Positions 2,930-40,375 of a DNA stretch of 44,585 bases are shown piece after piece (within the stretch, counting starts at the first letter, position 1; each line of letters starts with the position of its first letter). Made by a program: the position numbers and the translations under genes. Source of the DNA: Opitutales bacterium (GTDB taxonomy: Bacteria; Verrucomicrobiota; Verrucomicrobiia; Opitutales; Oceanipulchritudinaceae); assembly GCA_020831585.1 (NCBI GenBank), contig JAFIGE010000026.1, positions 1-44,585 of the forward strand. The letters run 5' to 3'. The notes under the pieces were generated by a model, which was not told the origin of the DNA, did no database searches, and saw only the letters and a program-made list of their open reading frames with translations.

Positions 2930-3009
2930 GGCGCGGTTATTCGGGGTTGGTTCGCGTGGATTGGGGCGCGGGGGTGTGATTAAAACGGCGGGTTTGATCA
3001 AAAGTGGAA

Positions 3010-3054
3010 GCGGCATCTTGCCGCTATTTTATGTGGGAAGCGGCTGGAAGCCGC
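3010..3054. repeat. Tandem pair of short hairpins between symporter and sulfatase
   Basis: Two perfect stem-loops sit side by side: GCGGCATCTTGCCGC (3010-3024, 5-bp stem) and GCGGCTGGAAGCCGC (3040-3054, 6-bp stem). They are separated by an A/T-rich stretch and preceded by similar GGAAG or GTGGAAG sequence. The look is that of a dispersed REP-type element. It lies just after the symporter stop codon on the minus strand, where it could terminate or stabilise the transcript, but neither has a clean U-tract on that strand. Confidence 0.6.
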
Positions 3055-7654: not shown

Positions 7655-8602
7655 ATGGCACCTTATCTGAATCCCGGCGGCGACGCGCCGCCCTCCCTGC
7701 GGATTTACCTGAATATGGACAACCTCGCCGATCCGCCCGCAGGCGCGGATTGGCCGCGCGCGGAGGATCCCGACTGCTTCGCACGGCTTGCATTGGATGG
7801 TTTTGAGGGCATCCAGTGGACCGGCGCGGACGCACCGCCGAGCCATTGCCGACTGCCGTGGTGTGGGCTCGACCGCGTCAACGCGCCCGCCGAAGCAGAC
7901 GCCATTGTCGCGCGACACGCCGACTGCGGCGACCAGTGCCTGACCCTGCACGCGGGTTGGGGCATCGAGAGCGACGCGGAGGTAGACGCCCTTGTGCACG
8001 CCATCCTTGAGGCCGGGGAGCGCCACCGCCTGCCGGTCTTTATCGAGACCCACCGGGCCACCCTTACGCAGGACATGTGGCGCACGGTCGAGTTGACCAA
8101 ACGCATCCCGGAGGTCCGCTTCAATGGCGACTTCAGCCACTACTATTGCGGGCAGGAGATGGTCTACGGTGGCCTTGGCAGGAAGCTCGATTTCATGGCC
8201 CCGATTTTTGACCGGGTGGGCTTCATGCACGGGCGGGTGGCCGCGCCAGGCTGGATGCAGGCCCCCATCGTTACCGATGAAGCGCGCCCCGCCGAAGCCA
8301 CTGGCGAAATCGATTATTGGGCGGATTTTCGCAGGATTTGGCGCCGCGCGATCCGCGGTTTCCTCACCCACGCCGGTCCCGGAGACGTCCTCGTTTTCGC
8401 GCCGGAGTTGCTCTCGGGAAGGCATTATTATGCCCGTCTGTTTGCCGACGCCGCCGGTATTGTGCGCGAGGAGACCGACCGCTATGCGCAGGCGCGGCTC
8501 TACGCCGGCTGGATTCGCTGCCTCTTTGAAGGGGAACGGGCAGCGCTCGCAAGCCATCCCTCCGCTACGGGCGAAAACCCCGAAGAAGGCCAACTGAAAT
8601 GA
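7655..8602 (+). CDS. Xylose-isomerase-like TIM-barrel protein
   Basis: This 315-residue protein of the sugar-phosphate isomerase/epimerase (AP-endonuclease 2) fold has the family's scattered metal ligands recognisable as IETHR, NGDFSHY, HGRV and FAPEL, in the usual Glu-Asp-His-Glu order. Such proteins isomerise or epimerise sugars, inositols or keto acids; the exact reaction cannot be told. The start at 7655 was chosen because it gives a compact N-terminus; a TTG at 7631 is an alternative. The gene starts 20 bp after the fusion oxygenase and its stop overlaps the next start (ATGA, 8599-8602), so it is translationally coupled with the methyltransferase gene. Its presence between the oxygenase and UroD proteins suggests that it handles the same, perhaps sugar-like, substrate. 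Confidence 0.85.
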   Translation: MAPYLNPGGDAPPSLRIYLNMDNLADPPAGADWPRAEDPDCFARLALDGFEGIQWTGADAPPSHCRLPWCGLDRVNAPAEADAIVARHADCGDQCLTLHAGWGIESDAEVDALVHAILEAGERHRLPVFIETHRATLTQDMWRTVELTKRIPEVRFNGDFSHYYCGQEMVYGGLGRKLDFMAPIFDRVGFMHGRVAAPGWMQAPIVTDEARPAEATGEIDYWADFRRIWRRAIRGFLTHAGPGDVLVFAPELLSGRHYYARLFADAAGIVREETDRYAQARLYAGWIRCLFEGERAALASHPSATGENPEEGQLK

Positions 8603-9591
8603 ACGGATACGAACGCTACTTCGCCACCCTCGACGGTGGCACGCCCGACCACCCCGCCCGCACGCCCATCCTCATGCGCTGGGCGGCGGAACACATTGGC
8701 CAGGCCTACGGGGCATTTGTTTCCGATCACCGCGTGTTGGTCGAAGCCAACCTGCGCTGCGCGCGCGATCTCGGGATCGATCAGGTGAGCGCCATCTCCG
8801 ATCCCCTGCGGGAGACCGCCGGGTTTGGCGGCAAGGTCGCCATCCATCCGCAGACCGGTGCCTCCTGCGAGGAACCACCCCTTGCGGCGGCGCTCGACCT
8901 CGCCCTGTTGCAGCGACCCGATCCGGCTTCCTCCCTGCGCATGCGGGACCGCGTCGAGGCGGTGCGGCTCTTCAAGGCAAAGGTTGGCGGAGAGTATTCC
9001 ATTCTCGGATGGGTGGAAGGTCCCCTGGCCGAGGCGGCCGATTTGCGGCGCATGGACAACCTTTTCATGGACCTCTTCGACGGCGATGAGGAGGTGGCCG
9101 CCCTGCTTGATGTGTGCACCGACGTCGCCATCGATTTTGCCCGCGCCCAAGTGGAAGCGGGCGCGGACACCATCGGGGTGGGGGACGCGGCCGCCAGCCA
9201 GATCTCCGCCGATCTCTACGAAGAGTGGGTGTGGCCGCGCGAGAAGCGCCTCGTTGAGGCCATCCATGCCATGGGTGCGCGGGTGAAACTCCACATCTGC
9301 GGCAACATCACCCACCTGCTTCCCGGCATTGCCCGCCTCGGACTCGATGTGCTCGATGTGGATCATTTGGTCGATCTGGCCACGGTGCGCGCCGCCGTCG
9401 GGCCGAAAGTTGCCCTTGCCGGCAACGTCGACCCCGTAAAGGGCGTTATGCAGGCCCGGCCTGACGCCATCCGGACGGCGGTTGCCGCCTGTCGCGAGCG
9501 CGCTGCCGGGCCCTTTCTCGTCAACGCCGGCTGTGAGATCCCCGCCGGAACCCCTCTGGAAAACCTCCGCGCCTTTTGCCAACCTTTATGA
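8599..9591 (+). CDS. UroD-family corrinoid methyltransferase, MtaA/MtbA-like
   Basis: This 330-residue uroporphyrinogen-decarboxylase-fold protein keeps the zinc site of MtaA/MtbA-type methyltransferases: His232-x-Cys234 in LHICGN and Cys312 in NAGCEIP. Known relatives move a methyl group from methyl-corrinoid protein to a zinc-activated thiol, coenzyme M in methanogens. In bacteria the acceptor may differ, for example tetrahydrofolate. It is too unlike true HemE, and the setting is wrong for haem synthesis. ATGA overlaps at both ends (8599 and 9588) couple it to its neighbours. Of the UroD proteins here it has the most canonical zinc ligands, making it the best candidate for the acceptor-side methyltransferase partner of MtaC at 11952. 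Confidence 0.9.
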   Translation: MNGYERYFATLDGGTPDHPARTPILMRWAAEHIGQAYGAFVSDHRVLVEANLRCARDLGIDQVSAISDPLRETAGFGGKVAIHPQTGASCEEPPLAAALDLALLQRPDPASSLRMRDRVEAVRLFKAKVGGEYSILGWVEGPLAEAADLRRMDNLFMDLFDGDEEVAALLDVCTDVAIDFARAQVEAGADTIGVGDAAASQISADLYEEWVWPREKRLVEAIHAMGARVKLHICGNITHLLPGIARLGLDVLDVDHLVDLATVRAAVGPKVALAGNVDPVKGVMQARPDAIRTAVAACRERAAGPFLVNAGCEIPAGTPLENLRAFCQPL

Positions 9592-10652
9592 CCCCGCACG
9601 AACGCATCCAAGCCATCCTTGCACGCCGCCCGGTCGACCGCATTCCGGTCGATGTCTGGCTCACACCCGAAGTCCTCAATGCCCTCAAGGAAAGCCTCGG
9701 CGAAACCGACGAACTCGCGCTCTACGCGAAGCTCGGCCTCGACAAAATAGTCTGGATTTTCCCCGGCTACGGCACGGGCGTCTACGATCCCAACCGCAGC
9801 GAAGGCGGGCGGAGCCACTGGGGTGTGCCCACGCGCGAAGTGAAGGCGGGGGCGGCCACCTACATCGAACACGGCGAACCGCCCCTCGGCCAAATGGAGG
9901 ATCCCGCCGAACTCGACGCCTATCCCCACTGGCCCGATCCCGACCGCTTTGACTATGCGGGGGCAAAGGAACTGGCCCTGGCCGCCCGCCGACACGGCTT
10001 TGCCACCATCGGTCCCTGGATCTCGCACCTCGAAGTTTATTGCCAGATGCGCGGTCTCGAGAACGCCCTCATGGATGTCGCCGCCGAACCGGATTTCCTC
10101 GATGCCGCCGTCGCCCGCATCGACCGTATCCAAACGGCCATGCTCGACCGCATGATGGACGAACTCGGCGACCTTCTCGACATCGTCTTCATCAGCGATG
10201 ATCTCGGCACCCAGGAATCGCTTCTCATTTCTGTGGATGCGTGGAAGCGGCACTTTGAATGCCTCCTTCGGCGCTGGTGCGAGCGTATCCACGCCCGGGG
10301 CAAAAAGGTCCTCTTTCATACCGATGGGGCCGCCCGGCCCTTCATCCCGCACCTCCTCGACGCCGGCGTTGACATCCTCAATCCGATCCAGCACCGCTGC
10401 CCGACAATGGACCGCGCCGCGCTCAAACGCGATTTCGGCGACCGCTGCATTTTCCACGGAGGTGTGGAAAACCAGGAAGTGCTTCCCTTCGGCACGGTCG
10501 AAGACGTTCGCCGCGAGACCCGCGCCTGCCTCAAAACCCTTGGGGCCGACGGACAGGGATACATCCTTTCCTCCTGCCACAACATCCAGGCCGGGACCCC
10601 TGTGGAAAACGTCCTTGCGATGATCGAAACAGCCCGCGCTTGGCGGCTGTGA
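9588..10652 (+). CDS. UroD-family protein, HTDG subtype
   Basis: This 354-residue uroporphyrinogen-decarboxylase-fold protein opens with TPHERIQAILARRPVDRIP, the usual start of the family. Where MtaA has His-x-Cys, this protein has HTDG (His244), and the downstream region is SSCHNIQAGTP. It shares that feature with the protein at 28738-29829, so it belongs to a different subgroup from its neighbour at 8599. Members of this subgroup are common beside corrinoid proteins and may demethylate a substrate rather than methylate an acceptor, but the reaction is not known from sequence. The ATG at 9588 overlaps the previous stop; an in-frame TTG at 9576 is less likely. The regulator follows after 10 bp. 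Confidence 0.9.
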   Translation: MTPHERIQAILARRPVDRIPVDVWLTPEVLNALKESLGETDELALYAKLGLDKIVWIFPGYGTGVYDPNRSEGGRSHWGVPTREVKAGAATYIEHGEPPLGQMEDPAELDAYPHWPDPDRFDYAGAKELALAARRHGFATIGPWISHLEVYCQMRGLENALMDVAAEPDFLDAAVARIDRIQTAMLDRMMDELGDLLDIVFISDDLGTQESLLISVDAWKRHFECLLRRWCERIHARGKKVLFHTDGAARPFIPHLLDAGVDILNPIQHRCPTMDRAALKRDFGDRCIFHGGVENQEVLPFGTVEDVRRETRACLKTLGADGQGYILSSCHNIQAGTPVENVLAMIETARAWRL

Positions 10653-10662
10653 GGCCCTGGGG

Positions 10663-11868
10663 ATGAGTTTGGACGGGCAGAAAAGATTGGAGCTTTTGCG
10701 AGTCTGTTGGCCGTTGTTCCCCGGCTTGCCCGATACGTTGGATTTGCCCGAGGGGCTGGGGTTGCGCCTGGTTGATTCCTCCGGCGTGGTTTTTGCCGTT
10801 CTCAGAAACGGAGCGGGTTTTGGGCCGATCTCCCGCTCCGAGCAAAAGGAAATGGTCGAGGAGGCCCTGCGCTGGGGCGATCCCTGCTACCGGTGGTGCG
10901 ATGACGAGAACATCGCCATTGCGCTCCCCTTGACCTGGAACCAGACTCTTCTTGGAGGTCTGTTGGCTTTGGTTCCCTCCAGTCTCACCTCAAATGGGCA
11001 GGGCAACGGTGCATCGCCGCCGCGTGAGATCGCCCAACGGTTGATGGACTTCCTGGGCCAATGCAACTGGCTGAACCTCGCCTTGATGGCGGATCACCGC
11101 GCGGCGGCCGAGCGGGAGCGACTGCGTGCGGAAGCCATCCATGAGGCGAAGACGCGGGGCGAGGGGCCCTGGCAGGCGAGCTATTCGTATTGGGAACCGG
11201 AGCTGTTCCTCGCCATGCGCCGCCGGGAACGCTCCGAGGCCAGGCGTATCCTCAACCGCATTCTTCTCGCTCTCTACAGCCTGGGCATGGAAGATCTCGG
11301 GCGAACGAAAGGATTCGTCCTCGACCTGGTAACGATGATGGCACGAACCATGGTCGATTGTGGCGCGGACCCGGCCGACACCCTTGGGCGGGGCATGGAA
11401 CGCCTGAACCAACTTGACGCGCTGGAGGACGAGGAAACCCTCGGCCGATGGGTCGCCGACATTCTTGAACGATTGATCGATGCCGTAGAAAAGACCACCT
11501 GCCCTTCGGAGGACTTTCGCATGAGCCTCGCTTTGAAGTACCTTCGTGAGCACTGCGAGCAACCGCTTTCCCGCGATGAAGTGGCGGCCAAGGTGGGGCT
11601 TTCCCCGGCGCACTTTTCCCGGCTTTTTTCAGCTGCGGTCGGGCGTTCCTTCAGCGATGAGTTGCTGCACATTCGTCTGGAGAAAGCCATCCGACTGCTC
11701 GGTCGGAGCGATGCGCCGATTAAGGAAATCGCCGGGTTGTGCGGATTTTCCGACCAGGGATATTTCACGCGGGTGTTTCGCCGGAAACTGGGCCGGACCC
11801 CCGGTGCCTACGCCGCCCTCTCGCCCCACCGCACGAAAGTCCTACAAACCGAACGAATGTCCCAATGA
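10663..11868 (+). CDS. AraC-family regulator with PocR-like sensor domain
   Basis: This 401-residue transcription regulator has about 150 N-terminal residues resembling the PocR ligand-binding domain (RVCWPLFPGLPDTLDLPEG, Cys in DPCYRWCDDENI). In other bacteria this domain is found in sensors linked to corrinoid and one-carbon enzymes. A helical middle follows, and a double helix-turn-helix of AraC type occupies about residues 290-390 (LSRDEVAAKVGLSPAHFSRL, then IKEIAGLCGFSDQGYFTRVF). It starts 10 bp after the UroD gene and is followed by an 83-bp gap before mtaC-like 11952, the most likely place for a regulated promoter. Local activation of the methyltransferase operon is inferred from position. 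Confidence 0.88.
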   Translation: MSLDGQKRLELLRVCWPLFPGLPDTLDLPEGLGLRLVDSSGVVFAVLRNGAGFGPISRSEQKEMVEEALRWGDPCYRWCDDENIAIALPLTWNQTLLGGLLALVPSSLTSNGQGNGASPPREIAQRLMDFLGQCNWLNLALMADHRAAAERERLRAEAIHEAKTRGEGPWQASYSYWEPELFLAMRRRERSEARRILNRILLALYSLGMEDLGRTKGFVLDLVTMMARTMVDCGADPADTLGRGMERLNQLDALEDEETLGRWVADILERLIDAVEKTTCPSEDFRMSLALKYLREHCEQPLSRDEVAAKVGLSPAHFSRLFSAAVGRSFSDELLHIRLEKAIRLLGRSDAPIKEIAGLCGFSDQGYFTRVFRRKLGRTPGAYAALSPHRTKVLQTERMSQ

Positions 11869-11951: not shown

Positions 11952-12587
11952 ATGAATCAAAATCTCACACTCCTTCAATCGGCCATTGAAGCCGGCAAAC
12001 GCAAAGATGCCGTTGCTCTCACCCGCAGCCTCCTCGACGAAGGGATGGCCCCGCTTGACGTTGTCGAACAGGCCCTTGTTCCGGGAATGAGTGTCATCGG
12101 CGAGAAGTTCAAGCGCAACGAAGTCTTCGTTCCCGAAATGCTCATTGCCGCGCGGGCGATGAAGGAGTGCATGGTTCTTCTTGAGCCCCTTTTGGTTGCC
12201 GCCGGGGTCAAACCCAAGCACACCGCCGTCATCGGCACCGTCCAAGGCGACTTGCATGACATCGGTAAGAACCTTGTCGCGATGATGCTCAAGGGAGCGA
12301 ATTTCGCCGTGCATGATCTGGGAACAAATGTGCCTACGGAGAAATTCGTCGAAGCGGCCCGCGAGCATGGTGCCGAGCTTGTCTGTCTCTCGGCTCTTCT
12401 CACCACCACCATGCCCGCGATGCGCGAGGCAGTCGGGGTCATCCGCGCGGCGGCTTTGCCGAAGGTGAAGATTCTGGTGGGAGGTGCGCCGATCACCCAG
12501 GAGTTCTGCAACGAAATCGGTGCCGACGGCTATTCTCCGGATGCCGCCAGCGCGGTCGACAAAGCGAAGGAAGTGCTCTCAGCCTAA
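11952..12587 (+). CDS. mtaC: Corrinoid (cobalamin-binding) methyltransferase protein, MtaC-like
   Basis: This 211-residue two-domain corrinoid protein has an N-terminal helical cap (about 1-85, B12-binding 2 type) and a C-terminal Rossmann-like cobalamin domain. The cobalamin domain carries DxHxxG as Asp100-Leu-His102-Asp-Ile-Gly105, where His102 is the lower axial ligand of cobalt. Other B12 contacts are SALLTTTMPAM and GGAPITQEF. It would carry the methyl group between MtaB and a UroD-type transferase while cycling between Co(I) and methyl-Co(III). MtaB follows after 11 bp. The symbol rests on adjacency to MtaB; by sequence alone it could equally be called MtbC or MttC-like. Confidence 0.93.
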   Translation: MNQNLTLLQSAIEAGKRKDAVALTRSLLDEGMAPLDVVEQALVPGMSVIGEKFKRNEVFVPEMLIAARAMKECMVLLEPLLVAAGVKPKHTAVIGTVQGDLHDIGKNLVAMMLKGANFAVHDLGTNVPTEKFVEAAREHGAELVCLSALLTTTMPAMREAVGVIRAAALPKVKILVGGAPITQEFCNEIGADGYSPDAASAVDKAKEVLSA

Positions 12588-12598: not shown

Positions 12599-13978
12599 AT
12601 GCGAAAGTTCACCAAACTCGCGGTCGATGATCCGCTCCAACTTATTTTCGGGCAGGCTCCCCATCCCGTCAGGACCCGCGCGGGCCTTGAGATTGGCGGT
12701 GGTCTTGTGTATCCGGAGATCAACTTCACCCTTCCCTCGTTGACGATCGACGCCGGGGGGCTTCCCGGCATTTGCCGGAACTATGAGCAAATCATCCAGG
12801 GAACGCTGAGGCGGGCGGCGGAGCTGGAGGTTCCCGGGGTTGTGGTGGAGTTTGAGACCCTGCCCCCTATGACGGAGCACCCGGATTGGGGTATGGCCAT
12901 TGTCGACATCCTTCTTAACGGCATGGCGGAAGAGGCGGATCGCAGCGGCTTGAAGAGTGTGTTGCGTATGACTCCCAACGACAACCGTGAGTTCGAGCGG
13001 CCTCCGCTCATGCGACGGGGGCGGTATTGGGAGGCGATGCTCGAGCTTTTTGAGCGCAGTTCGGCCGCCGGGGCGGAGCTGCTCAGTATCGAGTCGGTCG
13101 GGGGTAAAGAACTGCATGACGACGCTCTCCTCAACGGCGATTTACCCGCGAGCATCTTTTCCCTTTGCATCCTTGGCGCGCGTGACATGGAGTTCCTATG
13201 GAACCACATCCACGGGATCACCTCCCGGCACGGGGCCATCTGCGCGGGCGACACTGCCTGCGGCTTTGGCAACACCGCGATGGTCCTCGCCGAGCAAAAA
13301 ATGATTCCGCGCGTCTTTGCCGCCGTCGTTCGCGCCGTTACCGCCGTGCGGTCGCTGGTGGCCTATGAGTGCGGCGCTGTCGGTCCGGGCAAGGACTGTG
13401 GCTATGAAAACCCCATCCTCAAAGCCATCACCGGGTTCCCCATGGCCATGGAAGGAAAAACAGCCGCCTGCGCGCACTTCAGCCCGATGGGCAACCTTGC
13501 CGCCGCCTGCTGCGACACATGGAGCAACGAGAGCGTACAAAACATCAAACTTCTCGCGGGCATGGCTCCCACCTGCTATATGGAGCAGCTGGCTTATGAT
13601 TGCCGCCTGATGAACCAGGCGCGTTCGGAAGGTTCGACCGCCGCCGAAACCCTCCAACGCTGGCTCGTTAATTCCGATGCTGCGCTCGATCCGCAGGCCT
13701 ACATTATTTCGCCCCACTCATCCATCGAGTTGGCGCGGGTCATCGTGGCCGAGGATTCTCCCTACAAAGCGGGGGTGGCGGTCGCGCGAAAGGCCATCGA
13801 CATCCTGGAATCGGCTCACCATGGGGGCAAACTCCGTATCGCTCCAAACGAAGTCGTGTGGTTTGACCGGCTTCGTGATGAACTCGACGACCTCCCCGGG
13901 GATGAAGGCGATTTCATTTCCCAGCGGCTCAGCCTGGCCGATTCCACGAAATTCCTCCCGGCGGAATACGGACTCTGA
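12599..13978 (+). CDS. mtaB: Methanol:corrinoid methyltransferase, MtaB-like
   Basis: This 459-residue protein shows the whole MtaB pattern. MtaB activates methanol on zinc and passes the methyl group to the corrinoid of MtaC. The predicted zinc ligands are Glu165 (SIESVGGKE), Cys221 (GDTACGFGNT) and Cys267 (GKDCGYENP), within one or two positions of Glu164, Cys220 and Cys269 of the Methanosarcina barkeri enzyme. Length also fits. The conserved ligands argue for methanol or a very similar methyl donor, although MtaB relatives acting on other O-methyl compounds cannot be excluded. It sits 11 bp after the corrinoid protein. The next gene starts 145 bp downstream; nothing convincing was found in that gap. 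Confidence 0.95.
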   Translation: MRKFTKLAVDDPLQLIFGQAPHPVRTRAGLEIGGGLVYPEINFTLPSLTIDAGGLPGICRNYEQIIQGTLRRAAELEVPGVVVEFETLPPMTEHPDWGMAIVDILLNGMAEEADRSGLKSVLRMTPNDNREFERPPLMRRGRYWEAMLELFERSSAAGAELLSIESVGGKELHDDALLNGDLPASIFSLCILGARDMEFLWNHIHGITSRHGAICAGDTACGFGNTAMVLAEQKMIPRVFAAVVRAVTAVRSLVAYECGAVGPGKDCGYENPILKAITGFPMAMEGKTAACAHFSPMGNLAAACCDTWSNESVQNIKLLAGMAPTCYMEQLAYDCRLMNQARSEGSTAAETLQRWLVNSDAALDPQAYIISPHSSIELARVIVAEDSPYKAGVAVARKAIDILESAHHGGKLRIAPNEVVWFDRLRDELDDLPGDEGDFISQRLSLADSTKFLPAEYGL

Positions 13979-14123: not shown

Positions 14124-15533
14124 ATGAATAACCTCACGCCATCCAAAAACGGACGCGAACTCCTTCTCTGCGCCCTTCGTTGCCAGCCGGTCGAACGCAC
14201 GCCCTGGGTCCCCTTTGTCGGGGTCCACGGGGGCGCGCTCATTGGCGTTGATGCCACTGCGCATCTACAGAGTGCCGACCATATTTTCCGCGGTCTGCGG
14301 GAGGCTGCGAAACGCTACCGCCCCGACGGCCTGCCCGTCGCCTTTGATCTGCAGCTTGAAGCGGAGGTCCTTGGTTGCGCCCTTGCCTGGGCAAAGGAGA
14401 CCCCGCCCTCGGTTGCGAGCCATCCCCTGGGGGCGGACTATGCGACGCAGAAGCTGCCGACATTTTCTGTCGACCAGGGCCGCATCCCCTTCGTTCTTGA
14501 GGCGACGCGCCGGGCCAAGGCGGCATTTGGTGAAGAGATTGCGCTCTACGGTGTGATCACCGGGCCGCTCACCCTCGCCCTCCATCTGCGCGGCGATGAC
14601 TTGCTCCTCGATATGTTTGAGGAAACGGACGAGGTGCCCGAACTCCTCGCTTACTGCACGGAGATCGCCCGGCAAATGGCCGAGGCCTACCTCGAAGCCG
14701 GGGCCGATGTCATTGCCGTGGTTGATCCCATGGTCAGCCAGATCGGACCGCATCACTTTGAGGAGTTCGTCGCTCCTTGCCTCAACCGCATTTTTGATCA
14801 TGTGCGCGACTGCGGGGGCCTTTCCTCACTCTTCGTCTGCGGCAACGCCACGCGCAACCTGGAGGCGATGTGCGCCACACAATGCGACAATATCTCGATC
14901 GATGAGAATGTGAACCTCGCCGATCTTGCCCGGGTCGCGCAGGCGCACGGAAAGTCTTTCGGGGGCAATCTCAAGCTCACCGTGGTTCTCCTCCTCGGCG
15001 ATGAAGACGATACGCGGCGCGATGTGGTGCGCGCGCTTGACCAGGCGGGCACCGCGCCCGGCTTCGTTCTCGCGCCGGGCTGCGATCTTCCCTACGCCGT
15101 GAAGACGGCCAATCTGGAGACCGTTGCCGCCCTCGTCCACGATCCCTATCAAGTCGAGGTCGCACGGCGGCTCCCGGCCAAAGATTTGGATGATGACTTC
15201 GCCGATATCGCCATACCGGAGTATGGGGCGGAGAAATCCGTCATCGTCGATGTGGTCACGCTCGACTCCGCGGGGTGCGCGCCTTGCGCCTACATTTACA
15301 GTGCGGCCATGGAAGCTGCCCGCGCGTTTGAGGGCCCCGTCTCCGTGCATGAGCGCAAGATCACCGGACGCGAGGGCCTTGCCTACATGAAGAAACTGGG
15401 GGTCTCGGCCATTCCCAGCATCTGTGTGGACGGGCAGGAGCGCTTTGCCTCCATTATCCCCGACCGGCGTGAACTCATCCAGGCTCTGAGCGACGCGGCC
15501 ACCGCCAAGGGCACCGGCCGCGCCTCCCCGTGA
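14124..15533 (+). CDS. UroD-family methyltransferase fused to a thioredoxin-like domain
   Basis: This is a 469-residue protein. Residues about 1-365 are an MtaA/CmuA-like uroporphyrinogen-decarboxylase fold, with Cys239 (FVCGN) and Cys320 (APGCDLPY) at the zinc-site positions. The His of the usual His-x-Cys is replaced by Phe. Residues about 374-460 form a thioredoxin/glutaredoxin-like domain with the redox motif C385-A-P-C388 and a cis-proline-like segment VSAIPSIC. The start at 14124 was chosen because the family begins near this LTPSKNGRELLLCAL stretch; upstream in-frame sequence is low-complexity. The stop overlaps the GTG start of the CobW gene. The fused disulphide centre may supply or protect thiols at the zinc site, or be a route for reducing the corrinoid; both are inference. 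Confidence 0.9.
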   Translation: MNNLTPSKNGRELLLCALRCQPVERTPWVPFVGVHGGALIGVDATAHLQSADHIFRGLREAAKRYRPDGLPVAFDLQLEAEVLGCALAWAKETPPSVASHPLGADYATQKLPTFSVDQGRIPFVLEATRRAKAAFGEEIALYGVITGPLTLALHLRGDDLLLDMFEETDEVPELLAYCTEIARQMAEAYLEAGADVIAVVDPMVSQIGPHHFEEFVAPCLNRIFDHVRDCGGLSSLFVCGNATRNLEAMCATQCDNISIDENVNLADLARVAQAHGKSFGGNLKLTVVLLLGDEDDTRRDVVRALDQAGTAPGFVLAPGCDLPYAVKTANLETVAALVHDPYQVEVARRLPAKDLDDDFADIAIPEYGAEKSVIVDVVTLDSAGCAPCAYIYSAAMEAARAFEGPVSVHERKITGREGLAYMKKLGVSAIPSICVDGQERFASIIPDRRELIQALSDAATAKGTGRASP

Positions 15534-16453
15534 GCCCCCCGGTCTTGATGGTCCCGCTACCGGTTCTTCTTGTCACGGGTTTCCTCGGGAGTGGAAAGAC
15601 GACCCTGCTCCAGCGTCTGGCGGAGGTCCGGCCGCACGCGCGGATGGCGTTTCTCGTCAATGAGTTTGCCGCGACAGGGGTGGACGATGTCCTTCTTGAG
15701 GGCCGGGCCGCCGCAACGCACCGGGTGGTGGGCGGGAGCCTCTTTTGCGAGTGCAAAGCGGGAGAGTTTATCCGCATCGTCTGCGAGGAGGTGCTTCCCC
15801 ACCACTCGGTGAAACCCTTCGACGTTCTCGTCATCGAGACCACCGGCCTGGCCGATCCCGAGTCGATGGGCACCCTCGTTGCGGCGCATCCAGCCCTCCG
15901 GGCGCTTCGCATAGCCTCAAGGGTCACCGTGGTCGCCCCGCGACAATTTGCCACTTTGCTCGAAAGCCTTCCCGTCGTGAGAGCACAGATACAATCGGCC
16001 GATACGATCATTATCAACAAAACCGATCTCGCCGATGCGGCCTGCCTCGACTCGGTGTCCGCGCTCATCCGCGCGATCAATCCCGCCGCGGGTATTCTCT
16101 GCGCCCGCTATTGTGAGGTGCCCTTGGACTGGAGGGAAATCGCCGGTCCTTCGCCCGCTCAGCCACTCAGCACCTGCGAAGCCAATCCCTTTTCCACCGC
16201 CGAGGCCAACTTCGGACCGGAGGTCGATTTGGAGACGCTGCGGCAGCGGCTCCGGGCGCTCCCCCCGGAGATTCTCCGGGTGAAGGGAACTCTCCGCTCC
16301 GCTGGAGAGACCTGGGCGATTAACCGGACGGTGGATGATCTCGACATCCGGCAAACCACCGCCGAGGCTTTGGGTAAGCTCGTTCTCATTGCCCACGACA
16401 AAGACGAAGCTCTTCTTGAACAAGCCTGCCATGGCCTTACCGCCGCCAGCTGA
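15530..16453 (+). CDS. CobW/G3E-family GTPase (metallochaperone-like)
   Basis: This 307-residue P-loop GTPase of the G3E class has Walker A GFLGSGKTT, a switch region ending IETTGLADP, and the guanine-specificity motif NKTDLAD. A CobW C-terminal domain is likely over about 210-300. The CxCC metal motif usual in CobW proteins is not seen; the equivalent region reads GGSLFCECKAGEF. The family inserts or delivers metals, chiefly zinc or cobalt. Here it may load zinc into the methyltransferases or help corrinoid assembly, judging by its position between the UroD-thioredoxin gene (4-bp overlap) and DUF1638. The start is the GTG at 15530; an ATG at 15548 is possible. Confidence 0.9.
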   Translation: MSPPVLMVPLPVLLVTGFLGSGKTTLLQRLAEVRPHARMAFLVNEFAATGVDDVLLEGRAAATHRVVGGSLFCECKAGEFIRIVCEEVLPHHSVKPFDVLVIETTGLADPESMGTLVAAHPALRALRIASRVTVVAPRQFATLLESLPVVRAQIQSADTIIINKTDLADAACLDSVSALIRAINPAAGILCARYCEVPLDWREIAGPSPAQPLSTCEANPFSTAEANFGPEVDLETLRQRLRALPPEILRVKGTLRSAGETWAINRTVDDLDIRQTTAEALGKLVLIAHDKDEALLEQACHGLTAAS

Positions 16454-16463
16454 AGCCCCGGAG

Positions 16464-17180
16464 ATGACCGGACACGCGGTCATTGCCTGCGATGTCTTTG
16501 CCGAAGAATTGCGCCTATTGGGGGGCGAGCACCCACCGTGGAGGGTCCTCGAACTCCTCGAAATGGGTTTGCACGACCGGCCCGATGAGCTCCGTCGTGA
16601 AATTCAGAATACAATCCACCGTCTGGAGAACGACCCCTGCGTTGGGACCGTTCTCCTCCTCTATGGCCTCTGCGGCAACGGACTTGTGGGTGTGCGCCCG
16701 GGGCGGGCTCGTCTGGTTCTGCCCCGCGCGCACGATTGCATTTCCATTCTTCTCGGCGGTTGTGAGCAGCACAGCAAAGTCCTCGCCGGGGAACCCGGCA
16801 CTTACTTCTACAGCCCCGGCTGGATACGGGAAAAACGCGTTCCTGGTCCAGACCGCGAAGCCCACCTGCGCAAGCATTATGGCGAGCGTTTTGGCGATGA
16901 TCCGGAGATCATCGAAGACCTTCTCGAAGCGGACCGTGAGGCTTTCTCGCACCATAACCGGGCGGCCTATGTGGACCTCTTTCCCAACGATGAGGCGGAG
17001 GCTTATAGCCGCGCCTGCGCGCACTGCATGGGCTGGCGCTTCGAACGCCTGCGGGGCGATCCCGCCCTCCTCCGGGGGCTCTTTGCGAAGGAGTGGGATC
17101 CCGCCCGCTACCTTCTGGTCGAGCCTGGCCAAGCCATTACCCTGGCGCACGACGGCACTCTCGTGCAGGCGCGCCCATGA
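16464..17180 (+). CDS. DUF1638 family protein
   Basis: This 238-residue protein matches the uncharacterised DUF1638 family, recognisable by LYGLCGNGLVGV and LPRAHDCISILLG, with further cysteines in GGCEQH and ACAHC. The many conserved Cys and His residues suggest a metal site. Such genes are often found next to corrinoid methyltransferase and RACo genes, as here, so a role in the same methyl-transfer system is likely, but the reaction is unknown. It starts 10 bp after the CobW stop, and its own stop overlaps the RACo start (ATGA, 17177-17180). An alternative start at 16431 would overlap the CobW gene. Confidence 0.85.
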   Translation: MTGHAVIACDVFAEELRLLGGEHPPWRVLELLEMGLHDRPDELRREIQNTIHRLENDPCVGTVLLLYGLCGNGLVGVRPGRARLVLPRAHDCISILLGGCEQHSKVLAGEPGTYFYSPGWIREKRVPGPDREAHLRKHYGERFGDDPEIIEDLLEADREAFSHHNRAAYVDLFPNDEAEAYSRACAHCMGWRFERLRGDPALLRGLFAKEWDPARYLLVEPGQAITLAHDGTLVQARP

Positions 17181-18769
17181 ACGACTCTGGCTCCATCCCC
17201 GTGCGCGTTCCGGGAAAGGGGGAACGAACTCTTCTTCGGAGCGGAGAGGAGCCGCCCCCGACATCCCTCGCGGATTTTCTCGAAGAGCATCAATGCCCGC
17301 TCAACACCCGTTGTGGGGGCCGCGGCCTCTGCCAGGGCTGCCGCGTGGAGCTGACCAGGGGCGACGGCGGGAAAGAGAACCTCCGCGCCTGCCAAACCAG
17401 ACTTGCGGACTTGCCGAAGGACCTGCGGCGCGTCGACATTCCGGAAGCTTCCTGGCGCGATCATTCGCTTCATGGCGTGAGCGTATTTGAAATCCGAACA
17501 TCGCTGCCAGCCCCGGACCCGCGGGCCGCAGGTCACGGAATTGCCTTGGACGTCGGTACGACAACAGTCGCTGCCGCCCTTTGGGATTTGGCCACGGGCC
17601 ACTGTTTGGGCCATGCTTCCATAGCCAACGCACAATCCCGCTATGGCGACAACGTGCTCGCACGGATCCAGCATGCTGTGGAAAAGTCCGGTGGGATTCG
17701 GGATCTGCAATCCCGGCTGGTCGCGAAGAGCCTGGTTCCCCTCATCCGCGATCTTTGCGGGCGGGCCGGGATCGAGCCGTCAAACCTTCGCATGGGCACC
17801 GCCAGCGGCAACACCGTGATGCTCCATACCCTCGCGGGAGAGCCTCTGGATGGTCTCAGCGTCTATCCCTTCCGCCCCGTCTTTCTTGTTGAGCGGATTT
17901 TCGAGGCGGGGGCTCTCTCTTCCAAGCTGCCTTTTCCCCTCCGCCTCTTGCCGGGCCTGGGGCCATTTGTGGGTGCGGACATTGCCGTGGGCGCGCTCGC
18001 CTCCGGCATACTCGAAGCCGAAGCCCCCGTCCTCCTCATTGATTTTGGCACGAATGGAGAAATTCTTCTTAAATCGGGAGACGGTTACCTGGCCACGGCC
18101 ACGGCGGCCGGACCGGCTTTTGAAGGTGGACGCCTCACTTGTGGAGCGACTGCGCGAAAGGGAGTGATCGCCTCGCTCCGGCGCGACCGGGGGACATGGG
18201 CCTGGAGCCTTGTTGGGAAGGTGGAGCCCACCACCGCCCCCGTCGGCATCTCCGGTGCGGCCTACATTGATTTCCTGGCCCTCGGCCACGCCGAGGGGCT
18301 CCTCAACGATTTTGGCCGCTTCGCGACGGGTCACCCGGAGGTCGCCGAGCGCCTGGATGCCGATGGTGATCGTGAGCGTTTCATCCGCCTCGGCCCGAAT
18401 CTTGTCATCACCGAAGGCGACGTGGCGGAGCTTCTCCAGGCCAAAGCCGCCATCGGGGGTGGGGTCGCCACCCTGCTCGACGAAGCGGGTCTACGCCCAG
18501 GCGACCTGCGTGGTGTGTATGTGGCCGGAGGTTTTGGCTACCACCTGCACCCTGGGCACGCCTGCCACATTGGCCTCTTGCCGGATGTTTTGCTGGAAAA
18601 GATCGAGACCGTGGGTAACGCCTCGCTCGCGGGAGCGTCGTTTTGCCTGCTCCACCCGTTCCCGCAGGCCCTCGCGCCTCTCGTCCAAGCCGTTCGGGTA
18701 ATCGAGCTGAACCAGGTGCCCTCCTTCGAAGACCACTTCACGGATGCCCTGCGTCTTGTGCCGGAGTGA
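17177..18769 (+). CDS. Reductive activator of corrinoid proteins (RACo, RamA/AcsV-like)
   Basis: This 530-residue ASKHA-type ATPase restores corrinoid proteins whose cobalt has slipped to the inactive Co(II) state. The N-terminal [2Fe-2S] ferredoxin domain has ligands Cys46, Cys52, Cys55 and Cys72 (RCGGRGLCQGC). It is followed by a linker and an ATPase domain with ALDVGTTTVAAALWDLATG, IDFGTNGEILL and VYVAGGFGYHLHPGHA. This is the RACo family of acetogens and related bacteria; DUF4445 is its C-terminal part. Together with MtaB, MtaC and the UroD proteins it strongly supports an active corrinoid methyl-transfer route. It is the last gene of the island; a repeat and transposase block follows. 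Confidence 0.94.
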   Translation: MNDSGSIPVRVPGKGERTLLRSGEEPPPTSLADFLEEHQCPLNTRCGGRGLCQGCRVELTRGDGGKENLRACQTRLADLPKDLRRVDIPEASWRDHSLHGVSVFEIRTSLPAPDPRAAGHGIALDVGTTTVAAALWDLATGHCLGHASIANAQSRYGDNVLARIQHAVEKSGGIRDLQSRLVAKSLVPLIRDLCGRAGIEPSNLRMGTASGNTVMLHTLAGEPLDGLSVYPFRPVFLVERIFEAGALSSKLPFPLRLLPGLGPFVGADIAVGALASGILEAEAPVLLIDFGTNGEILLKSGDGYLATATAAGPAFEGGRLTCGATARKGVIASLRRDRGTWAWSLVGKVEPTTAPVGISGAAYIDFLALGHAEGLLNDFGRFATGHPEVAERLDADGDRERFIRLGPNLVITEGDVAELLQAKAAIGGGVATLLDEAGLRPGDLRGVYVAGGFGYHLHPGHACHIGLLPDVLLEKIETVGNASLAGASFCLLHPFPQALAPLVQAVRVIELNQVPSFEDHFTDALRLVPE

Positions 18770-18784
18770 GGGGAGGCTCCCCCC

Positions 18785-19408
18785 GGTGGAGCCTTGAAAG
18801 GGCGAGGGGTCTGAATCGTCCTGTGAACGGGCATTGCCTTCCGCCCCTTCAGGGCGGCTGCGTTGGATGGCGGGGTCCCACGGCTTCGCCGCGGGCTATC
18901 GCCTGTCGCCGCGTTGCGGCTGGGAGGATCCGGAGCCGCTGGCGGGTTCGGAATGGGGAAGGCCGGGCGTGCGCCAGCCCCGAACACGGCGCGAGTTCCG
19001 GGTTTCACGAGCCCCGAATGGGGCGGGAGGCGATAGCCCAGGGCGGAGCGCAGCGCCGCCCTGGGTCCATGACGCCCCAACCGGTGAGCCCTGAAGGGGC
19101 GGTAGGTGCCAATCGTCCTGTGAACGGGCGTTGCCTTCCGCCCCTTCAGGGCGGCTGCGTTGGATGGCGGGGTCCCACGGCTTCGCCGCGGGCTATCGCC
19201 TGTCGCCGCGTTGCGGCTGGGAGGATCCGGAGCCGCTGGCGGGTTCGGAATGGGGAAGGCCGGGCGTGCGCCAGCCCCGAACACGGCGCGAGTTCCGGGT
19301 TTCACGAGCCCCGAATGGGGCGGGAGGCGATAGCCCAGGGCGGAGCGCAGCGCCGCCCTGGGTCCATGACGCCCCAACCGGTGAGCCCTGAAGGGGCGGT
19401 AGGTGTCA
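18785..19408. repeat. Two tandem copies of a 297-bp palindrome-rich repeat
   Basis: The unit recurs with a 297-bp period (the same AATCGTCCTGTGAACGGGC block begins at 18814 and 19111) and is almost identical between copies. Inside each unit the outer arms CCGCCCCTTCAGGG and CCCTGAAGGGGCGG are inverted, as are the inner arms GGGCTATCGCCT and AGGCGATAGCCC, so nested hairpins can form. Both strands stay open for long distances, giving false ORFs. A third, shorter copy lies at 19978-20213 on the other side of the transposase gene. With that gene it fills the space between RACo and rhaA, which converge here. No other gene is seen in 18770-19417. Confidence 0.92.
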
Positions 19409-19417
19409 CCTCCCCGA

Positions 19418-19870
19418 TCAATCCCAAACGTAATTCTCGTCGAAGGGGATCTCATATCTCGTCAACAACCTTCGATACTCCTCTTGAAACGTGACGGTCC
19501 GGTGATGTTCGGTTTGGTTGGCAAGATAGGCCTCGACAGCCTTTCGATGCGAAGGGCTGATGGAAAAAATCCCATACCCGCTCTGCCAGGAGAACTCCGG
19601 ATAGTGGGATCCCTTTGTTTTGATCCAACGGGAGCTACCTGTTTTTATGGCTTGGACAAGATCGGCGGGCGCAATCGTACGCGGATGGGCGATGAGTAGG
19701 TGGATATGATCGGCGACTGAACCTGCCTTGAGGAGGCCACCTTTGTGGGCGTTGATGATTCCACCAATGTATCCATGCAGGTCGTCGCGCAGGTCATCCT
19801 CGATGAACGGTTGGCGGTTCTTCGTGGAGAAAACCAGATGCACGAGCATTTGTGCCAGAGATTGGGGCAT
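19418..19870 (-). CDS. IS200/IS605-type Y1 transposase, REP-associated (RAYT-like)
   Basis: This 150-residue HUH nuclease has the divalent-metal motif His55-Ile-His57 (ADHIHLL) and the likely catalytic Tyr115 in VEAYLANQ. Family hallmarks are HLVFSTKNR near the start, WQSGYGIFS near residue 95 and YVWD at the very end. Y1 enzymes nick and join single-stranded DNA at hairpins. The start at 19870 was chosen because the open frame upstream runs into the repeat DNA and is not protein-like. Copies of the 297-bp repeat flank it on both sides, and the gene is visibly lower in GC than its neighbours, pointing to acquisition. It looks intact. Confidence 0.92.
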   Translation of the reverse strand: MPQSLAQMLVHLVFSTKNRQPFIEDDLRDDLHGYIGGIINAHKGGLLKAGSVADHIHLLIAHPRTIAPADLVQAIKTGSSRWIKTKGSHYPEFSWQSGYGIFSISPSHRKAVEAYLANQTEHHRTVTFQEEYRRLLTRYEIPFDENYVWD

Positions 19871-19977
19871 GGTGGGTTGGAAATGGATGTTTACCGCGTA
19901 AAGAACTCTTGATTTGAATGATTGATGGAGGGTTGCTGGCAACGCAAATCCGGAAGAAATTGTGGAATCAGGCCATT

Positions 19978-20213
19978 TGGGCGTTGCCTTCCGCCCCTTC
20001 AGGGCGGCTGCGTTGGATGGCGGAGTCCCACTTCGCCGCGGGCTATCGCCTGTCGCCGCTTTGCGGCTGGGAGGATCCGGTGCCGCTGGCGGGTTCGGAA
20101 TGGGGAAGGCCGGGCGTGCGCCAGCCCCGAACACGGCGCGAGTTCCGGGTTTCACGAGCCCCGAATGGGGCGGGAGGCGATAGCCCAGGGCGGAGCGCAG
20201 CGCCGTCCTGGGT
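19978..20213. repeat. Third, shortened copy of the 297-bp repeat
   Basis: This copy has the same order as 18785-19408, beginning GGGCGTTGCCTTCCGCCCC and ending CGCCGTCCTGGG. It has a few base changes and a small deletion near 20030 (CACTTCGCC against CACGGCTTCGCC), and it lacks the 3' arm with CCCTGAAGGGGCGG. It runs to within 6 bp of the stop of rhaA. The 107 bp between the transposase start and this copy are AT-richer and may hold the transposase promoter; no gene is seen in 19871-20218. Confidence 0.88.
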
Positions 20214-20218
20214 GGGTG

Positions 20219-21478
20219 TTACCCGCGCCGCCTGAGGGTAGATGCTTCGTAAGCGCGCACCGGGCCTATCCAGGCACCGTCGCCGGGGGCATCGTGGCGT
20301 CGACAGAACTCCTCCCAGACGAGGCCCCAGGGGAGAGACTTGGTGTCTTCCAGAAGAGCCAGGCGGGCCGTGTGATCGCCGCGTTCTTCCGCTGCGCGGA
20401 GGGCTTCCCGTGGGCGGAGGAGGCCGAGGAGGAGGGCCTTGCGGGTATTGCGTGCGCCGATGGTCCAAGCGGCCAGGCGATTGATGCTTGCGTCGAAAAA
20501 GTCCATGCCGATGGACACCCGGGGAAGGATTTCCGGATCGGCGACCTCGGCGAGCATCTCTTTCGTGGCGTCGTCGAGGTTGACGACGTGGTCGCTGTCC
20601 CAGCGCACGCCCCGCGAGACGTGCAGGAGCAGGTGGGGGACAAAGGGAAGCACGGCGGAAATTTTGTCGGCGACGGATTCCGTCGGGTGAAAGTGCCCGG
20701 CGTCCAGGCAGAGCCCGATCTGGTGCTTCGCGGCAAAGGCGAGGTAAAACTCGTGCGAGCCCACGGTGTAGGATTCCACGCCGATGCCGAAGAGCTTGCT
20801 TTCGACGGTGTCGATGTTCCATTCCGTCGCTATCGGGGCGGCGAGGATTTCCTCAAGGGATTGGAGGAGCCGGCGGCGGGGGCCGCTGCGGTCGGCCGGG
20901 GTGTCTTTGTAGCCGTCGGGTATCCAGATATTGGTGACGGTGGGGGTGCCGAGGGTTTTGCCGATTTCCGCCCCAATGCGGCGGGAGGCAATGCAGTGGT
21001 CGATCCAGAATCGGCGGATGCCAGCGTCCCGGTGCGAAAGGGTGAATCCGTCGGCGGCCTTGGGGTGGCCAAAGCAGGTCGGATTGAAGTCGATGCCCCA
21101 GCCGCGCGAGGCCGCCCAATCTATCCACGAGCGGAAGTGGGCGGCCGTGAGGGCGTCGCGGTCGGCTTTGGCGGAATTGTCCGTGGCGTAGCTGGCGTGC
21201 AGGTTCAGCCGCAGAGGTCCCGGAATGAGGCGGGCGACCGCATCAAGGTCGGCGGCAAGTTCGTCGAAATTCCGCGCCTTGCCGGAATAATCGCCGGTGG
21301 CGAGGCAGCCGGAACCGGCATTGCCCGAGCCACTTTCGAAGCCGGCGACATCGTCGCCTTGCCAGCAGTGCAGGGAGACGGGCACCTGACTGAGCTTTTC
21401 GAGAGCGGCTTCCGTGTCGATGCCGGCGGCGGCGAAGCGCTCTTTCGCGAAATTGTAGGGATGGGGGGAGGTTGACAT
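20219..21478 (-). CDS. rhaA: L-rhamnose isomerase
   Basis: This 419-residue metal-dependent isomerase converts L-rhamnose to L-rhamnulose in the cytoplasm. It follows E. coli RhaA closely over its whole length: VPVSLHCWQGDDVAGFE near the start, DFNPTCFGHP, SRRIGAEIGKTLGTPTVTNI, VESKLFGIGVESYTVGSHEF, CLDAGHFHPTE and HVSRGVRWDSDHV. These include the Glu, Asp and His metal ligands. It is the last gene of a minus-strand group with a TIM-barrel epimerase and two zinc dehydrogenases. No rhamnulokinase or rhamnulose-1-phosphate aldolase is in the window, so the rest of the route lies elsewhere or follows a dehydrogenase branch. Confidence 0.97.
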   Translation of the reverse strand: MSTSPHPYNFAKERFAAAGIDTEAALEKLSQVPVSLHCWQGDDVAGFESGSGNAGSGCLATGDYSGKARNFDELAADLDAVARLIPGPLRLNLHASYATDNSAKADRDALTAAHFRSWIDWAASRGWGIDFNPTCFGHPKAADGFTLSHRDAGIRRFWIDHCIASRRIGAEIGKTLGTPTVTNIWIPDGYKDTPADRSGPRRRLLQSLEEILAAPIATEWNIDTVESKLFGIGVESYTVGSHEFYLAFAAKHQIGLCLDAGHFHPTESVADKISAVLPFVPHLLLHVSRGVRWDSDHVVNLDDATKEMLAEVADPEILPRVSIGMDFFDASINRLAAWTIGARNTRKALLLGLLRPREALRAAEERGDHTARLALLEDTKSLPWGLVWEEFCRRHDAPGDGAWIGPVRAYEASTLRRRG

Positions 21479-34626: not shown

Positions 34627-34713
34627 ATGCGCACATCCAGTTCTCCTCAACACCGATCAAATCATTCAATTAACGATATGAAGTTCTCATTCAGCAGAGC
34701 CTCCCATTTATGA
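34627..34713 (+). CDS. Short leader ORF (28 codons) ahead of the sulfatase
   Basis: ATG 34627 to TGA 34711-34713 encodes 28 residues rich in Ser and His (MRTSSSPQHRS...). It has one of the best Shine-Dalgarno sequences in the window, AAGGAG at 34610-34615, 11 nt before the start. Its stop overlaps the sulfatase ATG as ATGA, while the sulfatase itself has no clear ribosome site of its own. This suggests that ribosomes reach the sulfatase by translational coupling. The peptide matches nothing I recognise and may have no function beyond coupling or attenuation. Chance is not excluded. Confidence 0.45.
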   Translation: MRTSSSPQHRSNHSINDMKFSFSRASHL

Positions 34714-39962: not shown

Positions 39963-40375
39963 TGGGATCTCTCTATTTGCTCGATACCTCCGTCTTCTCT
40001 CAGCCGATTCGCCCCGAACCGGTTCCTTCATGCCAGACCAGGTGGCGGCGGCACGGCGACGACCGCTTGGCTGTTCCCGCCATGGCGATCGCGGAACTGG
40101 AATACGGGCTCTTCCTCAGGAACTCCGAGAAACTTTGGGAGGCTTATCGAAAGATCCTCAAAGGCCGCCTCCAAACTCTTGAGTTCGGGACCCGGGCGGC
40201 TTCGGTCTTTGGCGAGATGAAGGCCCGGCAAAGGCAACTCGGGAAGCCTGTCGACGACTTCGACTTGGCGATAGCCGCTGTCGCGGTCAGTCACGACCTC
40301 ATCGTCGCGACCCTCAATCTGCGTCACTTCAAGTTGATTGCCGGGCTGAAGTGGGAGGACTGGTCGAAGAGCTAA
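39962..40375 (+). CDS. PIN-domain toxin (VapC family)
   Basis: This 137-residue PIN-domain ribonuclease has active-site acids in LYLLDTSVFS, AMAIAELEYGL, PVDDFDLAIAA and the VATLNLRHFK end. It is paired with a Phd-type antitoxin rather than an AbrB-type one, so the locus is distinct from the other two in the window. A TTG three bases upstream is a less likely start. Its stop codon TAA shares bases with the stop of the convergent GH94 gene (CTAA at 40372-40375). Confidence 0.9.
   Translation: MGSLYLLDTSVFSQPIRPEPVPSCQTRWRRHGDDRLAVPAMAIAELEYGLFLRNSEKLWEAYRKILKGRLQTLEFGTRAASVFGEMKARQRQLGKPVDDFDLAIAAVAVSHDLIVATLNLRHFKLIAGLKWEDWSKS

Follow-up and report, generated by a model that had tools for sequence, protein, structure and literature searches.

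A UroD-type corrinoid methyltransferase subfamily with a fused thioredoxin domain, an altered metal site and a co-varying CobW-type GTPase partner

Contig JAFIGE010000026.1 of an Opitutales bacterium (GenBank assembly GCA_020831585.1) carries, in the 44,585 nucleotides analysed here (the window), a gene whose product joins a UroD-type methyltransferase to a thioredoxin domain. In the methyltransferase part, a phenylalanine stands where the zinc-ligand histidine is expected. What does such an enzyme do with an altered site and a dithiol of its own, and on which side of a corrinoid protein does it act? The protein, called UroD-Trx below, has the following features, all on the + strand:

14124 to 15533, +: UroD-type corrinoid methyltransferase with a C-terminal thioredoxin domain (UroD-Trx), one open frame of 469 residues
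14151 to 15143, +: UroD (TIM-barrel) domain, residues 10-340 (PF01208 on residues 11-340, E 7.5e-59)
14226 to 14228, +: H35, family-specific invariant His, aligned with G40 of MtaA 4ay7
14376 to 14378, +: C85, family-specific invariant Cys, from conservation
14583 to 14585, +: H154, family-specific invariant His, aligned with a Tyr of plant UROD 1j93
14832 to 14840, +: F237-V-C239, with Phe replacing the zinc-ligand His of the H-x-C motif, from the alignment to MtaA
15081 to 15083, +: C320, second conserved barrel cysteine, from alignment and conservation
15234 to 15491, +: thioredoxin domain, residues 371-456, with CAPC (C385-A-P-C388) at 15276-15287 and C434 at 15423-15425

The PF01208 profile matches the window protein with 199.9 bits, above its gathering cut-off of 23.9, and it matches all 79 aligned members of the family. 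Among solved structures MtaA is the best match (4ay7, E 9.4e-26), and in a fold search the barrel of the window model is matched by 4ay8_A (Z 43.1, rmsd 1.9, 330 residues aligned). MtaA/CmuA (TIGR01463) ranks first among the NCBIfam models with 160.7 bits, below its cut-off of 235.4; the thioredoxin families are weak, and among the matches listed no NCBIfam model reaches its cut-off. A misreading of two genes as one, or a frameshift, is ruled out: the frame is open throughout and 79 proteins (that of the window and 78 others) align across both domains. One locus of this alignment, L035, was left out because of a stop in the matched range. In another (L100, genome G481) the frame continues for about 90 residues beyond the thioredoxin domain, as seen by eye.

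The Thioredoxin_3 profile (PF13192) covers residues 382-453 of the window protein with E 5.6e-4 and 20.3 bits (23.7 bits for the domain alone; gathering cut-off 24.8). At E ≤ 0.01 it matches 73 of the 79 aligned proteins, including that of the window, and 34 of 35 excised domains. A profile built from these 35 domains finds the archaeal thioredoxins 1nho (6.3e-6) and 1fo5, at 6-7e-6, and the AlphaFold model has the strand and helix order of a thioredoxin. These three results show that the redox domain is real. Together with the open frame and the URO-D match (E 7.5e-59), they bear out the earlier note, which had proposed from the DNA alone a UroD-type methyltransferase fused to a CAPC thioredoxin domain. 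UroD-Trx is, judging from the alignments, a distinct subfamily of the UroD-fold corrinoid methyltransferases.

In a wider alignment of 86 proteins (including four duplicates; the low-scoring L002 and the duplicate of the window protein, L001, were dropped), C385, P387, C388 and P431 are invariant and C434, which the earlier note did not mention, is present in 85. By alignment, P431 is the cis-proline of the fold. CxxC and this proline thus occur together in 86 of 86 proteins, with the 1nho match of the profile. The residues that flank CAPC (TLDS, P431, C434, S443 and P446) are near invariant. The mean fraction of the major residue is 0.67 in the thioredoxin domain, 0.68 in the barrel and 0.44 in the linker, and the mean identity to the window protein is 0.51, 0.58 and 0.33, respectively. 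The thioredoxin domain is, by these measures, about as conserved as the barrel, and the linker is not.

The nearest families of this domain are the MJ0307, MTH895 and HUIPC thioredoxins. The HUIPC model (NF047660) matches 35 of 35 domains at E ≤ 0.01, and the window domain stays under the NCBI cut-off of each of the three families shown. A review table gives UxxC for HUIPC selenoproteins, which would fit C385 as the nucleophile.

The AlphaFold models are of good quality, with a mean pLDDT of 91.8 for the window protein and 91.5 for its Mariniphaga orthologue. Their pTM values, 0.90 and 0.88, exceed the value of about 0.75 that is expected from the barrel's share of the length if the barrel alone were placed. 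This suggests that the thioredoxin domain is probably held in a fixed, docked pose. No thioredoxin chain is present among the fold-search matches listed for either model, which is uninformative since one domain can fill the list.

The alignment with MtaA 4ay7 places FVCGN on HICGN, and Cys239 and Cys320 on the cysteines of MtaA, so that the replacement of His by Phe was correctly called in the earlier note, as was the retention of both cysteines. The same holds for 93 of 93 distinct fused rows. Among 118 distinct barrels (rows with fewer than 180 aligned barrel residues being omitted), H35, C85, H154, F237, C239 and C320 are present in all 93 fused sequences. In the 25 distinct unfused relatives, position 237 is His in 23, 239 is Cys in 23, 320 is Cys in 22 and His154 occurs in 2; H35 and C85 each occur once among 27 unfused rows, a count that still includes duplicates and short rows. 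An apparent unfused Phe, in L087, is an alignment slip, the raw sequence being FYHSCG. UroD-Trx thus lacks the His-Cys-Cys zinc signature (H-x-C...C), with Phe237 in 93/93 versus His in 23/25 unfused proteins. Chance, an artefact or a local mutation is ruled out as the origin of the motif by its conservation in the 86 aligned proteins, where F237, C239, C320, C385 and C388 do not vary, and in the 93 fused rows. Since the signature is fixed in fused barrels and rare in unfused ones, Phe237, with two histidines and one cysteine of the family's own, is, on this comparison, the mark of a family.

H35, H154 or C85, none of them mentioned in the earlier note, are candidates for a ligand that would replace the lost His237. 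The position of H35 is presumably in the active-site loop known from human UROD, and the Tyr of plant UROD that aligns with H154 is presumably also an active-site residue. The lost ligand may equally have no substitute, since zinc-free UroD methyltransferases exist (PMC13222342).

The family is widespread. A pattern-seeded scan of 84,980 species genomes returned 155 relatives, of which the best 80 were kept (and 75 were not); each of these best 80 matches extends through CAPC to at least residue 449. According to the record titles, the hosts belong to Verrucomicrobia, Opitutales, Kiritimatiellae, Lentisphaerae, Planctomycetota, Hydrogenedentota, Bacteroidota and Neomarinimicrobiota. The matched sequences thus place this conserved fusion across the PVC phyla, Hydrogenedentota, Bacteroidota and Neomarinimicrobiota. 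In the class of the window, 6 of 286 genomes have a match at E ≤ 1e-40, its own genome counted. Of 387 genomes in the phylum, 83 are matched at E ≤ 1e-20; 32 of them have the full-length fusion (one, G413, with an in-frame stop) and a few more have fragments, while the remaining matches are unfused UroD proteins with E 1.2e-47 or weaker. The earlier note had named two joint observations that would count against its proposal, a CAPC centre modelled far from the active site and a thioredoxin domain that comes and goes among orthologues. No such variation among orthologues was seen: the best 80 of the 155 loci and the 32 phylum genomes match through the thioredoxin domain.

In a midpoint-rooted FastTree tree, all the fused proteins group with a single unfused F-type sequence, L110 (support 0.877). 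This protein (genome G390, contig C6) is a truncated F-type UroD paralogue that lacks the thioredoxin domain, has Phe instead of Cys320 and looks degenerate.

The other trait of the family, absent from the earlier note, lies in the neighbouring gene:

15530 to 16453, +: CobW/COG0523 G3E GTPase, with the motif S70-L-F72-C73-E-C75 at 15737-15754

The profile of the G3E P-loop domain (PF02492) matches this protein with 113.2 bits (cut-off 20.7), and YjiA (1nij) is found with E 6.7e-17. Haas et al. (PMC2770081) stated that all COG0523 members share a CXCC motif, and described one subfamily encoded beside corrinoid methyltransferases, including mtaA/mtaB; the presence of CxCC in all COG0523 proteins is restated in PMC7895991. 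The neighbour of UroD-Trx departs from this: S-L-F-C-E-C of the window protein aligns with C-I-C-C of YjiA, and GS[ILV]FCxC (SxFCxC below) stands in place of CxCC in 71 of 71 distinct CobW neighbours (best match per locus, the window counted).

To describe the neighbourhoods we used 85 loci besides that of the window, 81 of which are distinct after removal of four duplicates; many end at contig edges. CobW is the commonest neighbour of UroD-Trx, in 71 of the 81 distinct loci and in 67 of the 74 whose downstream sequence is 1200 nt or longer. The association also holds at the level of genomes. A CobW match at E ≤ 2e-24 is present in 30 of 32 genomes with UroD-Trx versus 1 of 32 without (G466), with a Fisher p of 1.8e-14 that is only a guide because the genomes are related and the controls non-random (they were chosen from the phylum scan for holding unfused UroD relatives). 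At E ≤ 1e-5 the counts are 31 of 32 versus 6 of 32.

The best CobW match reads GSxFCxC in all 30 UroD-Trx genomes with a strong match. Other CobW proteins (27 genes in 19 genomes, including G560 and G562) have CxCC in 26 cases, including the three encoded beside MtaB, the methanol:corrinoid methyltransferase (G305, G560 and G562). Both motifs occur together in at least 12 genomes. In that of the window, two further CobW proteins (L189, L191) read GCICC, and Sunxiuqinia has a GGCICC CobW beside MtaB and an NGSVFCVC CobW beside UroD-Trx. With Phe237 in the enzyme and SxFCxC in the linked CobW, the aligned motifs indicate that the change from a ligand to Phe occurs in the enzyme and its putative chaperone together. 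The linkage suggests that CobW may serve a metal of UroD-Trx.

The remaining partners are less constant. On the same strand, profiles find in the 85 loci 75 CobW, 46 corrinoid proteins, 25 homocysteine methyltransferases (HMT), 11 RACo activases and 11 DUF1638 proteins; for the 81 distinct loci the numbers are 71, 46, 25, 11 and 10. The HMT is MetH-like (1q7m, E 3.1e-54). A typical Bacteroidota locus has a divergent AraC gene, a corrinoid protein, UroD-Trx, HMT and CobW, with exceptions such as L062 and L070, which have no HMT. The presence of a corrinoid protein in the genome is not discriminating, as a stand-alone copy occurs in about 30 of the 32 genomes that have UroD-Trx and in about 27 of the 32 that lack it.

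In one locus (L017, 9510-11114) CobW and DUF1638 share a frame, and L131, L132 and L133 show CobW frames of like size (535-548 aa). This is a clue that DUF1638 might act with the GTPase.

In the window, UroD-Trx and CobW lie in a run of genes for corrinoid-dependent methyl transfer:

8599 to 9591, +: second UroD protein, with canonical H-I-C...C
9576 to 10652, +: third UroD protein, with H-T-D...C (carboxylate type)
10663 to 11868, +: AraC-family regulator
11952 to 12587, +: stand-alone corrinoid protein (MtgC/MtbC/MtaC type), with the cobalamin motif GDLHDIG
12599 to 13978, +: MtaB-type methanol:corrinoid methyltransferase (PF12176, E 2.5e-160, 534.7 bits, cut-off 25)
16413 to 17180, +: DUF1638 protein, whose open reading frame (ORF) may begin at 16335
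17174 to 18769, +: RACo-type ferredoxin-fused reductive activase of corrinoid proteins, whose ORF opens at 17093

The PF12176 match (E 2.5e-160) agrees with the MtaB neighbour implied in the earlier note; the protein scores 421.1 bits with the NCBI equivalog NF040651, below the cut-off of 720. The H-T-D...C set of the third UroD protein resembles the ligand sets of O-methyltransferases (PMC10418091). Elsewhere in the genome, the sole S-methyl_trans and the sole Pterin_bind match (E ≤ 0.001) lie in one 1252-aa frame with a B12 domain, which is MetH. At the same threshold no separate dihydropteroate synthase match was found in this genome, PF00809 being present only in the MetH frame (contig C109).

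The earlier note had pointed to other MtaB operons as the place to look for the same fusion. It was not found there: by profiles, MtaB is beside UroD-Trx in 0 of the 85 other loci and in the window locus only. MtaB is also present in just 6 of the 69 genomes examined, that of the window included, and is thus ruled out as a standing partner. Five other MtaB genes were found, three of them with CobW beside them (G305, G560 and G562). In G305, which lacks UroD-Trx, a corrinoid protein, MtaB, CobW (GGCLCC), RACo and HMT form one run (L165, 2577-9544), a candidate methanol-to-methionine route without folate. Judged by gene order, MtaB and UroD-Trx seem to stand in for each other as the methyltransferase of operons of the same type.

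On which side of the corrinoid protein does UroD-Trx then act? We favour the donor side, that is, UroD-Trx as a corrinoid MT1, from its slot in the operon. UroD-Trx fills the MtaB slot of modules like that of G305, and in both Maribellus and Mariniphaga MtaB is absent, RACo occurs once and the single stand-alone corrinoid protein (E ≤ 1e-10) is encoded beside UroD-Trx. The full reading, tentative and with a probability of about 0.42, is as follows. The methyl source of UroD-Trx would be a small compound, most likely with a soft atom (S or Se) as the methyl donor, and the methyl acceptor would be the Co(I) corrinoid of the corrinoid protein, which the RACo activase would keep reduced. The methyl would then go to homocysteine, on the adjacent MetH-like HMT in most Bacteroidota loci, or probably on the housekeeping MetH in the genome of the window. 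The centre of the enzyme, a metal or a dithiol, would be formed by C239 and C320, with the lost His237 made good by H35, H154 or C85. The SxFCxC CobW-type GTPase would load or maintain this centre, and the docked CAPC domain would keep the barrel thiols, or a thiol leaving group, reduced. The soft donor is suggested by the ligands: UroD S-methyltransferases are His-Cys-Cys, and O-methyltransferases have carboxylate or non-ligand substitutions (PMC10418091). ClMlp2 from the same study methylates selenide.

As to the dithiol, the earlier note had considered catalysis, reduction of the corrinoid, or a thiol methyl acceptor. Fixation of the altered site together with the CAPC domain across the family makes a functional CAPC dithiol likely. 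Reduction of the corrinoid is less likely as its main role, since a RACo-type activase is encoded in the operon and each of five named isolates has one or two, although RACo adjoins UroD-Trx in only 11 of the 81 distinct loci.

Several observations weigh against the donor-side reading. The corrinoid protein of the window already has a donor enzyme, MtaB, so that UroD-Trx could be on the acceptor side there, and the genome holds a second stand-alone corrinoid protein (C21, 19123-19695). Several other Verrucomicrobia loci have another UroD protein (H-S-C...H or H-T-D...C) between the corrinoid protein and UroD-Trx, and the named isolates hold 4-16 UroD proteins, HemE and UroD-Trx included, which are possible true donors. 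No free-standing homocysteine methyltransferase was found in the genome of the window, only MetH, and of the five partner families CobW is the only one in 29 of the 81 distinct loci, none is present in 5, and HMT is in only 25. The CobW link has exceptions too. G420 has UroD-Trx without a CobW match. L171, on a 3.2-kb contig of G373 without UroD-Trx, is the single other CobW with SxFCxC (G373 also carries a UroD-Trx with its own CobW), and in L184 (G290, C23) an SxF-type CobW with the motif SLFGRC is broken into two short frames, in a genome whose UroD-Trx is of full length. Lastly, no CobW was found in the 7.8 kb around the MtaB of G364, on a contig that ends close by, and that of G420 lies at a contig end.

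The alternative that survives best is doubtful as a whole. MtaB or another UroD protein would methylate the corrinoid protein, and UroD-Trx, like MtaA, would move the methyl to a thiol, be it a low-molecular-weight thiol, sulfide or a cysteine of its own CAPC domain. The order corrinoid protein, MtaB, UroD-Trx, activase in the window mirrors the archaeal MtaC-MtaB-MtaA. MtaA is also the closest solved relative, MtaA/CmuA is the closest NCBIfam model (below its cut-off), and across the Verrucomicrobia loci the donor-type enzymes vary and UroD-Trx is constant. The lone Pterin_bind match of the window's genome, in MetH, agrees with this too. However, most Bacteroidota loci already have an acceptor enzyme, the HMT, and no other donor beside UroD-Trx, and the like module of G305 has MtaB in the place of UroD-Trx and HMT as acceptor.

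It is unlikely that the fusion is only protective. UroD-Trx would then be a standard methyltransferase whose third ligand has moved, with CobW as a general zinc chaperone and with a thioredoxin domain whose only task is to guard thiols; the hosts would be facultative or aerobic, as several of the named ones are. COG0523 genes are indeed known beside mtaA/mtaB (PMC2770081), but the motif of CobW changes with the type of enzyme, and the residues that flank CAPC are near invariant, beyond what generic protection would seem to need. At the other extreme, a bolder form of the donor-side reading is quite unlikely: enzyme and GTPase would be a co-evolved pair of client and chaperone, both changed from ligand to Phe, with a centre of non-standard metal or geometry filled by this CobW only and dithiols cycled by the built-in thioredoxin, and the methyl of a methyl-sulfur compound (methanethiol, dimethyl (di)sulfide or alike) would go to the corrinoid protein and to homocysteine without folate in many environmental bacteria. 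A metal-free enzyme, in which C239 and C320 would be a redox dithiol/disulfide pair recharged by CAPC for a new thiol-dependent (de)alkylation or repair on the corrinoid protein, has precedent in zinc-free UroD methyltransferases such as CdmB (an aromatic cavity and no zinc, PMC13222342) and would suit the three conserved thioredoxin cysteines, but it is improbable, as the tight linkage to a COG0523 GTPase argues for a metal and RACo supplies the reduction of the corrinoid in the window operon as in the five isolates.

Further genes of the window touch the question of substrates. A fatty-acid-desaturase, a Rieske and an NAD-binding reductase domain are combined in the protein encoded at 5337-7634 (+), and L012 has a relative close to its fusion. 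The window protein resembles the aerobic O-demethylases of the MocD/MocE/MocF type, which beside corrinoid demethylases would suggest the use of O-methyl sugars or inositols. The setting is one of carbohydrate catabolism, with sulfatases (one by Pfam, one by eye), an L-rhamnose isomerase, GH94 and GH3 (1415-3016, 20219-21478, 34710-36116 and 40372-44441). At 18538-20155, repeats that are near identical at the protein level lie beside an ORF that resembles, by eye, a REP-associated transposase.

UroD-Trx offers two test cases. One is the choice of client and metal by COG0523 GTPases, whose motif changes here with the type of client, both kinds of CobW co-occurring in at least 12 genomes. The other is the fate of the methyl groups that are moved by the many uncharacterised UroD methyltransferases in non-acetogenic bacteria. 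A thioredoxin-fused corrinoid methyltransferase beside HMT would make a folate-independent route from methyl groups to methionine. Folate-free methionine synthases that use corrinoid proteins have been proposed for other families (PMC7857596). If the fusion merely guards thiols, UroD-Trx is still a conserved family that can be named.

We found no description of the fusion or of the SxFCxC CobW clade in the open-licence literature; the available text of the mec cassette paper (PMC9768040) has no such fusion. UroD-Trx is thus, as far as that literature goes, an undescribed subfamily of a known superfamily, with a co-varying metallochaperone-like partner, and it can be set against several known systems.

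It shares with MtaA and MtbA (the methylcobamide:CoM methyltransferases, 4ay7/4ay8) the UroD fold, 24-25% identity and the two aligned barrel cysteines. It differs from them by Phe in place of the zinc-ligand His, by the additional H35, C85 and H154, by the fused thioredoxin domain and by a TIGR01463 score below the cut-off. With the type 1 mlp clusters of Kountz and Balskus (PMC10418091) it has in common the grouping of UroD methyltransferases, a corrinoid protein and a Ram/RACE activase, with no folate methyltransferase in the cluster. The Mlps, however, are His-Cys-Cys apart from several Mlps1, and 73% of their genera are Firmicutes; CobW and DUF1638 are absent from the main text of that paper, where "thioredoxin" occurs only in the title of a reference. 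The zinc-free UroD methyltransferases of the CdmB type (PMC13222342) also depart from the zinc site, but their substrates are haloalkanes, and the word "thioredoxin" is absent from the main text of that report.

For the C-terminal domain, the small thioredoxins of the MJ0307/MTH895 type (1nho, 1ilo) and the HUIPC selenoproteins (NF047660) have the same fold with CxxC. The version in UroD-Trx differs in being attached to a methyltransferase domain, in its CAPC and in an extra cysteine, C434, three residues after P431.

The operons with MtaB and CobW (G305, G560 and G562), which we compare with COG0523 subfamily 13 of PMC2770081, likewise combine a corrinoid protein, a methyltransferase and a COG0523 GTPase, with the activase in two of the three loci and HMT in one. 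In these operons MtaB occupies the slot of the methyltransferase and CobW reads GGCxCC, whereas in the loci of UroD-Trx it reads SxFCxC.

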